Assembly: GCA_027028005.1 (NCBI GenBank) | Contig: JALVKE010000321.1 | Coordinates: forward strand, 1 to 48,279 | Source of the DNA: Persephonella sp. | Lineage (GTDB): Bacteria > Aquificota > Aquificia > Aquificales > Hydrogenothermaceae | Reading direction: 5' to 3' | DNA length: 48,279 nucleotides | Part shown: positions 3,709 to 46,596 of the stretch, piece after piece | Numbering within the stretch: the stretch's first letter is position 1 | Layout of the letters: every line of letters starts with the position of its first letter | Translations under genes and position numbers: made by a program | Notes under the pieces: model-generated | The model's database searches: none | Told to the model about the DNA's origin: nothing | What the model saw: only the letters and a program-made list of their open reading frames with translations

Positions 3709-4341
3709 TTAGAAATACTTTTTTAACTTTTCTTTATCTACTATTTTATATCCACTTTTATCCTTTACTAATATATTTTGCTCTCTAAACTTCTTTAAGA
3801 TTCTAGAAAGAGTTTCAGGGGTTATATTTAAAACAGACGCTATTTTATTATGCTTTAAAGTTAAAAAAAGATCCTCATGCTCATATATAAATTTAGCTAC
3901 TCTCGATACTGCATCCATCATAAGATTTTGAACTATCACATTATCTAAAACTCTTATTTTATACAGAAGTGATTTTACAAGTTCATAAGCTAATGTTGGA
4001 TTTTTCATTAGTTCCTTTTCAAACATATCAAAATTAATTGCAAGGACCTTCCCATCTGTTTCAAACTCAGCTGTAGCCGGATAATTTAGATTTTCAAAAT
4101 TTGCAAGTTCAGCAATAAGAGATACAGGGTAAAAATGATGTAATGTTATCTCGTGTCCTTTGAAATCTGTTTTAAATACTCTTATTATGCCATCTGTTAA
4201 AATATACAGATTTTCAGGTTCCTCTCCCTCATAAAATAAAATATCTCCTTTTTTATACTCTTTTTCATAGGAGAAACGTTCTAACGTTTTTAAATTTTCA
4301 TCAGAAAGATTCTTGAAAATATAAAGTTCTTTAAGGCCCAT
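3709..4341 (-). CDS. Crp/Fnr-family transcription regulator without cysteines
   Basis: The 210-residue protein has an N-terminal cyclic-nucleotide-type beta-roll (about residues 1-115, with GDILFYEGEEPENLYIL), a dimer helix, and a C-terminal winged helix. The recognition helix reads TPETLSRILKKF (174-185); E176, S179 and R180 match the ExxSR residues with which Fnr reads TTGAT half-sites. It contains no cysteine, so it cannot be an iron-sulfur Fnr. Cys-less relatives such as Dnr/NnrR respond to NO, often through heme, so an NO- or redox-responsive regulator of denitrification is a reasonable inference. It is divergent from napA, and a perfect Fnr box lies 47 bases upstream of its start, which suggests autoregulation plus nap control. 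Confidence 0.88.
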   Translation of the reverse strand: MGLKELYIFKNLSDENLKTLERFSYEKEYKKGDILFYEGEEPENLYILTDGIIRVFKTDFKGHEITLHHFYPVSLIAELANFENLNYPATAEFETDGKVLAINFDMFEKELMKNPTLAYELVKSLLYKIRVLDNVIVQNLMMDAVSRVAKFIYEHEDLFLTLKHNKIASVLNITPETLSRILKKFREQNILVKDKSGYKIVDKEKLKKYF

Positions 4342-4387: not shown

Positions 4388-4401
4388 TTGATAAAAATCA
4401 A
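4388..4401. promoter_or_regulatory. Perfect Fnr/Dnr-type operator TTGAT-N4-ATCAA
   Basis: The 14 bases TTGATAAAAATCAA match the Fnr/Dnr consensus at all ten specified positions. The box centre (4394.5) lies about 38 bases from the centre of a TATAAG element (4430-4435) on the nap side. That places it near -47 of a start at about 4442, close to the activator position of class II promoters. It lies 47 bases from the start of the Crp/Fnr gene on the other strand. The binding protein is inferred to be that neighbour. Confidence 0.8.
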
Positions 4402-4565
4402 TGAATAGATACACAACTAAAAACAATTTTATAAGAGGACGAATGAATATGATAAATGACATAAATAAAAGGTATATAGATGAGAGCAGTAGTAGGTCGT
4501 GCATATTCCTATATGTATTCAGGAAAATCCTATCAAAGAGATAACATTCTTTATTTCATAAAAAA

Positions 4566-4634
4566 CCGCCAGCTGGGTCTAGGCGGAATAGAAGTATCCC
4601 AGCCCTGTTGGGTTTAAACCCTTCAGGCGAGGAG
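4566..4634 (+). promoter_or_regulatory. Structured napA leader: putative pseudoknot plus hairpin next to the ribosome site
   Basis: CCGCC (4566-4570) can pair with GGCGG (4582-4586), and GCTGGG in its loop (4572-4577) can pair with CCCAGC (4598-4603), giving an H-type pseudoknot. A hairpin follows at once: CCTG (4604-4607) with CAGG (4624-4627) and GGG (4610-4612) with CCC (4619-4621) around TTTAAA. The hairpin abuts the GAGGAG ribosome site (4629-4634). CGCC (4567-4570) could instead pair with GGCG (4626-4629), which would break the pseudoknot and tie up the start of that site. This resembles a switch controlling translation, possibly a cofactor riboswitch, but I could not match it to a known class. 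Confidence 0.5.
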
Positions 4635-4641
4635 TAGAAGT

Positions 4642-7530
4642 ATGGAGGTAAAAGACAAGGAAAAGCACACATCGGGATTTGATATGTCCCGTAGAGATTT
4701 CCTAAAAACAACAGCTGCTGTAGCTGCTGCTACAGCTATTGGTATGGAAGTACCTGAGGAAGCTCTTGCAGCAGCATCTGGAGCAGAATCTGGATGGAGA
4801 TGGGATAAGGCAGTTTGTCGTTTCTGTGGAACAGGTTGTGGAATTATGATTGCCGTTAAAGATGATCGTATTGTTGCTGTTAAAGGGGATCCTAAAGCTC
4901 CAGTTAACAGAGGACTTAACTGTATTAAAGGTTATTTTACTGCAAAGATTATGTATGGTGCAGACCGTCTTACAAAACCTCTCCTTAGAATGAATGAAAA
5001 AGGTGAGTTTGATAAGAAAGGTAAATTTAGACCTGTAAGCTGGCAGAAAGCTTATGAAGTAATGGCTGAGCAGTTTAAGAAAGCTTACAATGAACTTGGA
5101 CCTGAAGGTGTTGCTATTTTTGGTTCTGGTCAGTACACAATTATGGAAGGTTATGCGGCTGCTAAGCTTATGAAAGCAGGTTTTCGTTCAAATAATATAG
5201 ACCCTAACGCTAGACACTGTATGGCATCTGCGGTTGTTGGATTTATACAAACATATGGAATAGATGAACCACCAGGATGTTACGATGATATTGAGCTTAC
5301 AGATACGTTCTTTGTTTGGGGCTCAAATATGGCAGAAATGCACCCAATTCTCTGGGCAAGGGTTACAGATAGGAAACTTTCAGATCCAGACAATGTACAA
5401 GTAGTTGTTTTATCAACATTTAGACATAGAACAATGGATTTAGCAGACATAGATATTGTTTTTAGACCAAATACAGATCTTGCAATGATGAACTATATTG
5501 CAAGAGAAATTGTTTACAACCATCCTGAAGCTATAGACTGGGACTTTGTAAACAAATACTGTGTATTCACAACTGGTTATATAGATACTGGCTACGGAAT
5601 GAGAAATCCAAACCACGCTAAGGAACTTGGATACAGTGATAAAGAACTACAAACAATAATAAAACAATCTGTTAAAAAAGTATCAGCTCTTGAAGCACCT
5701 GCTCTAAGCATCTACGGATACAAAGAAGGTGATACTATTCATATGAAACATGCTAAACAGGCTGGTAAACACTGGATTATCTCATTTGAAGATTTCAAAA
5801 AGGCTCTTGCACCATATACTCTTGATTACGTAGCTAAAATAGCAAAAGGTGATCCAGATGAACCATTAGAACAGTTCAAAGAAAAACTGAAAAAAATGGC
5901 TGAACTTTACATAGATAAAAACAGAAAAGCTGTTACATTTTGGACAATGGGATTTAACCAGCACACAAGAGGTTCATGGGTAAACGAACAGGCTTATATG
6001 CTCCATCACTTACTTGGAAAGCAAGCTCAACCTGGTAATGGAGCATTTTCTATTACAGGTCAGCCTTCTGCTTGTGGAACAGCAAGGGAGGTTGGAACAT
6101 TTGCACATAGACTTCCTGCTGATATGGTTGTATTTAACCCTAAACACAGAAAAGTAGCTGAAAAGATATGGGCAATACCTCATGGAACAATAAATCCAAA
6201 AGTTGGTTCTCATATTGTTAAGATTATGAGAGACCTTGAAGATGGAAAAATTAAGTTTGCTTGGGTTCAAGTATGTAACCCATGGCAGGACACAGCTAAC
6301 GCAAACCACTGGATTAAAGCTGCGAGAACAATGGATAACTTTATTGTGGTATCTGACTCTTATCCAGGTATATCTGCAAAAGTTGCGGATCTTATCCTGC
6401 CAGCAGCAATGATTTACGAAAAATGGGGTGCTTATGGAAACGCAGAAAGAAGAACACAGCACTGGAGACAGCAGGTAACAGCTCCAGGAGAGGCTATGCC
6501 GGATACATGGCATATAGTTGAGTTTTCTAAATTCTTCAAACTTAAAGAAGTATGGAAAGAATGGAAACTTTCAGATGGAACAGTTCTTCCAAACGTATTA
6601 GATAAAGCTAAGGAAATGGGTTATGACCCAGAAAATGACACTCTCTTTGATGTCCTATTCTCTGAAAAAGCATTTAAGAGAACAATTCCTGACGTTGATC
6701 TAAGATATCCACAACCTGTTGCTAAAAACCCTAACACAGGAGAAATTCATCCAAACACTTGTGCAGTTGGAGATAAGAGAACTGTTATAGGTGTAGATGG
6801 TAAACCATGGAAAGGATATGGATTTTTCATAGATAAAGCTCTATGGGAAGAGTATAGACTGTTTGGTCTTGGACATGGACACGACCTTGCAGACTTTGAT
6901 ACATATCATAAAGTAAGAGGTCTTAGATGGCCTGTTGTTGATGGAAAAGAAACTCCATGGAGATTTAATGCTGACTATGATCCGTATGCAAGAAGAGAAA
7001 TAGAAGCTGGAAGAGCTCCTAAAGATGGTAAATTTGCATTCTATGGACCAGCTCTTAAGAAACTACCAAGAGGTAACCTCTTTGATGTAACAGATCCTAA
7101 GAAAGTGGATCTCACAAACAAAACTAAGATCTTCTTCAGACCTTACATGGATCCTCCTGAGCCACCAGATAATGAATATCCATTCTGGCTTGCAACAGGT
7201 AGGGTTCTTGAACACTGGCACTCTGGAACAATGACAATGAGAGTTCCAGAACTCTACAGAGCTGTTCCTGAAGCATACTGTTATATGAACCCTAAAGATG
7301 CTGCAAAGCTAGGTGTTAAAGATAATGATCTTGTATGGATTGAATCTAGACGTGGAAAAGTTAAAGCAAGAGTTAAAACAAGAGGAAGAAACAGACCTCC
7401 AAGAGGACTTGTATTCGTACCTTGGTTCGATGAAAGGGTTTTCATCAACAAAGTTACCCTTGATGCTACTGATCCAATTTCTAAACAAACAGATTACAAA
7501 AAATGTGCAGTTAAAATCTATAAAGCATAA
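4642..7530 (+). CDS. napA: Periplasmic nitrate reductase catalytic subunit NapA
   Basis: NapA reduces nitrate to nitrite in the periplasm using a Mo-bis-MGD cofactor and one [4Fe-4S] cluster. The 962-residue precursor has a Tat signal (SRRDFLK near residue 16, hydrophobic stretch to an ALA cleavage site near 43), cluster cysteines C59, C62, C66 and C94, and the Mo-ligand cysteine C193 in [15 protein letters not shown] followed by PPGCYDDIE, which is diagnostic for NapA. It is longer than the roughly 830-residue proteobacterial enzyme and matches the long epsilonproteobacterial form (about 920). It is first in napAGHBFLD. Expression is probably set by the Fnr-type box and structured leader upstream. 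Confidence 0.97.
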
Positions 7531-46244: not shown

Positions 46245-46596
46245 TGGTGGAGGCGGGGGGAATCGAACCCCCGTCCGAGAACGGCCGTTGCTCGGGCCTT
46301 CTACAGGCTTAGCCTGTGTTTAGTTTTTCGCCTGCGGCGACCCCACAGGCAGGGTATCCGCAGGCTAGCCCTGTAGAGTTTCGGAAGATGCCTACAGGGC
46401 GGTTAGCATCTTCCTATCCCGTGTGTCTTACGCCCTTCCTGAGCCCACGGGCAAGCTCAGGAGGACGTCGCTGCGTTAATTAAGCAGCGAGAGCGATTTC
46501 GCGTTCGGGAATTGTTGTTGTTTGGTTTTTTACGGAGTCTCCTTCTCCGGCCTGCTGACCCGGCGTAACCGTTCCCGTCGAACCCGGATCGCCCCC
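46245..46596 (-). ncRNA. ssrA: tmRNA
   Basis: tmRNA rescues stalled ribosomes. On the minus strand it starts GGGGGCGATCCGGGTTCGACGGG (tRNA-like 5' arm, from 46596) and ends in a T-arm with GGTTCGATTCCCCC and encoded CCACCA (46250-46245); the acceptor stem GGGGGCG pairs with CGCCTCC. The tag frame (around 46521-46480) reads TTTIPEREIALAA and then TAA, with the ALAA ending of proteolysis tags; the resume codon is not certain. The gene is very GC-rich against its surroundings, which signals a thermophile. Confidence 0.95.

Follow-up and report, generated by a model that had tools for sequence, protein, structure and literature searches.

The window, that is the whole stretch of 48,279 nucleotides analysed here, carries napA and, directly upstream of it, a leader RNA which reaches almost to the Shine-Dalgarno site of the gene (Table 1). 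A Crp/Fnr-type regulator gene, divergent from napA, adjoins an FNR-type palindrome; this palindrome is likely to control the napA promoter, as judged from its sequence, and is outside the leader RNA family described below. A tmRNA gene is also present in the window. Between 4565 and 4644 the leader reads ACCGCC-A-GCUGGG-UCUA-GGCGG-AAUAGAAGUAU-CCCAGC-CCUG...CAGG-C-GAGGAG-UAGAAGU-AUG, where two helices (P1 and P2) are linked by an A-rich strand (L3) and followed by a hairpin (P3), with 14 nt between the end of P3 and the napA ATG at 4642, inside the family range of 13–17 nt. Single-sequence folding of the 141-nt napA leader region was not better than that of shuffled sequences (z -0.52), and by itself would have missed this RNA. 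Since the fold of the window alone is unremarkable, the case for a structure in the napA leader rests on comparison.

Table 1. Features of the napA leader region and of the window (positions in the window)
Feature	Positions	Strand	Basis
Crp/Fnr-type regulator gene	3709-4341	-	
FNR-type palindrome TTGATAAAAATCAA	4388-4401	+	sequence only; comparable boxes lie 5' of other napA leaders
P1 helix, 5' strand CCGCC	4566-4570	+	sequence; model 2 match 4565-4603; pair counts on relatives
P2 helix, 5' strand GCUGGG	4572-4577	+	compensatory changes across napA leaders and RNA family
P1 helix, 3' strand GGCGG	4582-4586	+	sequence; model 2 match; pair counts
L3, A-rich strand linking P1 and P2, AAUAGAAGUAU	4587-4597	+	conservation across 81 distinct cores
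P2 helix, 3' strand CCCAGC	4598-4603	+	compensatory changes
P3 hairpin CCUG...CAGG, directly 3' of P2	4604-4627	+	sequences vary across family, arms match
Shine-Dalgarno site GAGGAG	4629-4634	+	sequence
napA, gene downstream of the leader	4642-7530	+	ORF; TIGR01706/NF010055
tmRNA gene	46245-46596	-	Rfam RF00023, 196 bits

A preliminary description of this region had proposed that CCGCC/GGCGG and GCTGGG/CCCAGC interlock as an H-type pseudoknot, and had looked to compensatory changes in both helices across homologues as support. The sequence is as described, and the helices covary in the napA leaders. In fact, P1, P2 and P3 are kept in the napA leaders of five Hydrogenothermaceae genera (g1, g2, g5, g7 and g10) through compensatory changes, P2 changing on both sides (GCUGGG/CCCAGC, GUUCGGU/ACCGAAC, GUAUG/CAUAC and GCUAAA/UUUAGC) and P3 varying together with its partner strand. 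The element was not found in the napA leaders sampled from the Hydrogenothermaceae genera g8 and g9, from Aquificaceae and from other phyla. A covariance model built from 12 napA leaders (model 1) was used in a first sweep and gave many further strong matches within Hydrogenothermaceae. Because this model includes ribosome-site columns, a second one (model 2) was built without them and from 29 non-napA cores only; model 1 is biased toward copies near start codons, while model 2 is not. With model 2, 13 napA leaders were recovered and the window copy scored E 8.4e-7; applied to the window genome, the model found the napA leader as the only copy, at E 8.4e-6, the E-values of both models being rough.

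Among the 29 non-napA relatives, pairing holds in 96.5% of the P1 and P2 cells and two-sided changes occur in 8 of the 12 P1/P2 pairs. The covariation score of these helices was 0.317 versus 0.134 in shuffles, none of 500 shuffles being as high, in a control that is inflated by the relatedness of the sequences; shifting the partners by 1–3 columns lowered the score to at most 0.08. The pair counts on these relatives constitute the independent test of P1, since over the larger set of 81 cores the P1 counts hold by construction, the partner strand having been located by complementarity. Compensatory changes were thus present both in orthologous napA leaders and in relatives in front of other genes, and it is virtually certain, on this comparative evidence, that the RNA family exists and that the window copy is a member of it.

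The members share a recognizable anatomy. L3 follows the family consensus AAUAnAAnUA, where two positions are invariant in 81 distinct cores and most of the others nearly so. The second hairpin that the preliminary description had placed beside GAGGAG corresponds to P3, which was found in 112 of 116 leaders, in 95 of them at offset 0 after P2. The gap between P3 and AUG measures 13–17 nt in 93 of these 112 leaders, and Shine-Dalgarno-like bases fall inside the gap in 95 of the 112. Furthermore, 107 of the 108 non-transposon copies are followed, no more than 150 nt beyond P2, by the start of an ORF at least 60 aa in length, at a median distance of 37 nt (quartiles 34–42 nt), these being raw counts and distances. 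In a subset of copies, -10-like hexamers pile up 4–10 nt before P0, an extra stem, exceeding neighbouring positions. P0 pairs the bases before P1 with the loop that follows the 5' strand of P2 and is interlocked with both P1 and P2; with at least 8 bp, it was present in 85% of the 170 located copies versus 5% in controls.

With P0, the strand order becomes P0-P1-P2-P0'-P1'-P2', or ABCABC, which equals, in most members of the family, that of the "pseudotrefoil" topology (PMC3390330). The survey in question counted the ABCABC pattern in 51 sequences versus 1688 with ABAB, and the leader RNA is likened to those ABCABC sequences by strand order only. P0 is absent from the window copy and from the other napA leaders of genus g1, as well as from the napA copies of g5 and g10. 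The full ABCABC fold is therefore not required there, and P0 is treated as an optional feature of the family.

Model 2 has matches in 82 of the order's 112 genomes and in 85 of the 136 genomes of the heat-loving Aquificota, the remaining 51 having none. The number of copies per genome reaches 35, further genomes having 18, 16, 11 and 10, and in several Persephonella-type genomes the napA leader is the only copy found. As the copy number varies so widely and 51 of the 136 genomes have no match, the element is not essential to Aquificota. Outside this phylum, only weak matches were obtained in 45 genomes of other phyla reached through their napA loci (best, and rough, E 0.005), and spread by viruses was rejected, one exact pattern searched in viral contigs having given no match. 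Few regulatory RNAs are known from Aquificota, to which a covariation-supported RNA family is hereby added. It is unusual in its rarely seen strand topology and in its distribution, the same leader fold recurring, up to 35 times in a genome, at an almost constant spacing ahead of genes that are unrelated to one another.

The genes behind the leader, as assigned by NCBIfam, include hfq (in three genomes), rplY, rpsT, rpoA, infC, rho, tsf, acpP, ppa, ndk, ftsZ and htpX, to which rpsM, rpsN, adk, leuB, leuC, metE and ilvC would be added from our reading of the N-termini. Three of them, rpoA, infC and the gene of a TIGR03879 "probable regulatory domain" protein (L127, L140 and L344), are preceded by the leader in Hydrogenothermaceae (f1) as well as in Aquificaceae-type (f2) genomes. 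The downstream genes have no pathway in common. This bears directly on the ligand first considered, the molybdenum cofactor, which had seemed reasonable for NapA. A switch specific for napA, responding to that cofactor or to nitrate, would agree with the keeping of the leader on napA in five genera, and with those Persephonella-type genomes where no other copy was found. Nevertheless, dozens of unrelated housekeeping genes carry the same RNA, the napA leaders of Aquificaceae and of two Hydrogenothermaceae genera gave no match, and a napA-specific ligand is for the first of these reasons unsupported. The switch itself had been envisaged as an alternative pairing of 4567-4570 with 4626-4629, excluding the pseudoknot; such pairing needs GGCG before the ribosome site, which occurs in only 2 of 13 napA leaders, and so is not conserved. 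The Moco riboswitch, reported for one Aquificales species (PMC4227106), would be looked for beside a molybdoenzyme gene like napA, but the leader shows no covariance match to it and the target genes of the family are unrelated to molybdenum. A napA-specific switch is accordingly regarded as very improbable.

A broader riboswitch has also to be weighed, in which the P1/L3 core would form the pocket for some metabolite or ion in general use, whose binding beside the ribosome site would alter the translation of many genes. preQ1-I and SAM-II are H-type pseudoknot riboswitches, and the leader resembles them in its two interlocked helices, its A-rich connecting strand and its position near the ribosome site; besides, a conserved core (P1 and L3) lies within variable helices, as in ligand-binding RNAs. 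It differs from them in lacking a covariance match, in the third interlocked helix P0 of most copies, and in downstream genes which share no pathway. Moreover, the families of Rfam 15, with Moco, preQ1 and SAM among them, gave no relevant match at gathering or relaxed thresholds, which bears out the earlier suggestion of a new RNA class distinct from the Moco motif. The translational-switch geometry suggested at the same time has not stood up, since conserved pairing of the Shine-Dalgarno region with the P1 and P2 strands of the element was no better than in swapped controls; sequestration of the Shine-Dalgarno site by either strand was rejected on the same grounds. Taken with the absence of a conserved alternative pairing, these data make a riboswitch of this kind rather doubtful.

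Concerning novelty, no report of this RNA was found in the open-access literature, which was the literature covered, nor is it described in the accessible portion of PMC4227106, a survey of Aquificales ncRNAs.

Another possibility is that the element is the site of a general RNA-binding protein, controlling the set in trans from a gene with the element on its own leader, for instance Hfq or the TIGR03879 protein, the latter being a candidate trans-acting factor. The hfq leaders mentioned above and the presence of the element on the TIGR03879 gene in both families point in this direction, as does the occurrence of TIGR03879 in 116 of the 136 Aquificota genomes. TIGR03879, however, also occurs beyond Aquificota, and within it in genomes with no RNA match, and is missing from some genomes which do have one. 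From the sequences available, such a protein site would seem unlikely.

The best reading is that of a ribosome-compatible folded 5' leader with a cis effect on translation or mRNA stability, a reading for which, on sequence evidence, we would put belief and doubt in about equal measure. Given the known geometry of the 30S subunit, a fold ending 13–17 nt before AUG suggests that the ribosome could bind with the leader still folded. The RNA would then form a compact cis-acting structure immediately beyond the mRNA channel of the small ribosomal subunit, leaving the ribosome site single-stranded, and could either protect the mRNA or help the ribosome to bind, possibly tuned by a general factor. 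On this reading, transposons inserting beside the Shine-Dalgarno site of a gene would bring a copy able to replace both the displaced leader and its ribosome site. Should the fold influence the ribosome or the decay of mRNA, it would represent a general module of translation or stability instead of a switch for one ligand.

Many of the Hydrogenothermaceae copies are found in a different setting, at the 3' end of genes for TnpB proteins of 500–560 aa (TIGR01765, TIGR01766), and in some of these loci the upstream ORF is probably an IS607 serine recombinase, as read from its ending. In 13 of 20 copies (boundaries of L231-L250) the left end of these IS607-type elements is immediately preceded by AGGAGG or a near match to it, and the right end, ..CCAGG, is usually a few bases before a start codon, where it may supply a substitute ribosome site. 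These boundaries agree with published data, AGGAG being the TAM of an IS607 TnpB (PMC11061315) and GG the insertion site of IS607 elements (PMC10711439). Some of the elements are located within a ribosomal-protein operon (L147, beside adk, rpsM and rpsN). The known reRNAs of IS607 TnpB (RAGATH-18-derived, PMC11061315; ISXfa1, PMC10711439) resemble the transposon copies in their location at the tnpB 3' end, and contain pseudoknots as the leader element does. Unlike them, most copies of the leader family are 5' leaders with no TnpB, and close TnpB relatives have no P1/P2 module; besides, RAGATH-18 gave no match for the leader element at a relaxed threshold.

TnpB and the RNA often occur one without the other. 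No TnpB match was obtained in the genome with 35 copies, nor any RNA match in two genomes rich in TnpB, and many leaders, that of the window included, belong to genomes with no detected cognate TnpB. At the window copy neither tnpB nor a transposon right end was detected, and its genome (a fragmented assembly, 95% complete) gave no TnpB match. Moreover, close full-length TnpB relatives can be without the P1/P2 module while retaining P0, P3 and the CCAGG end, the presence or absence of the module requiring at least 4 changes on the TnpB tree, some branches of which are long; the pattern looks as if the module had been swapped in or out among TnpB relatives. The right ends of L299 and L300, for example, hold only two simple hairpins and no P1/P2, and their close relative L311 has the full module. 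A pure TnpB guide-RNA reading was rejected because of this mismatch among genomes and the lack of the module in close relatives, and the transposon copies are treated as carriers of the leader module.

Another reading is exaptation, in which the RNA would have arisen within the guide RNA at the right end of an IS607/TnpB element, been left at ribosome sites and been kept as a 5' leader. This origin would explain why leaders are always at ribosome sites, and is consistent with the many copies located at the 3' end of TnpB elements that begin next to AGGAGG or a close variant, as well as with the published TAM. Against it stand the genomes just listed in which TnpB and the RNA are dissociated, the window genome, which has neither a TnpB match nor a second copy, the close TnpB relatives with no module and the result with RAGATH-18, so that exaptation is considered quite unlikely.

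Returning to the ribosome-compatible leader, its fuller and bolder version can be put forward only tentatively, as a conjecture that may well fail: the ABCABC leader would dock at the mRNA exit of the small subunit, promoting or tuning the translation of dozens of housekeeping genes with no relation to one another, and would be carried by Shine-Dalgarno-targeting IS607-TnpB transposons to replace the ribosome site which they displace. The presence of the RNA in such elements suggests how a transposon could reduce the harm done by inserting at a ribosome site.

Two further candidates for the napA leader were rejected. Attenuation was dismissed because no terminator was found in this leader. A conserved leader peptide was considered in view of the upstream ORFs, of 46–73 codons, which cross the RNA in the majority of g1 and g2 genomes (around 4400–4610 in the window, and at the napA genes of L002-L010). 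These ORFs are absent, shifted or closed in other genomes, and their changes are non-synonymous at least as often as synonymous, so that coding conservation looks weak. Translating an upstream ORF across the leader RNA would unfold it. In addition, the napA upstream regions of L002-L011 contain, about 80 nt before the RNA, an extra stretch conserved in genus g2, ACAAAGGCACCA, which is in frame with an upstream ORF in most copies (not in L009).
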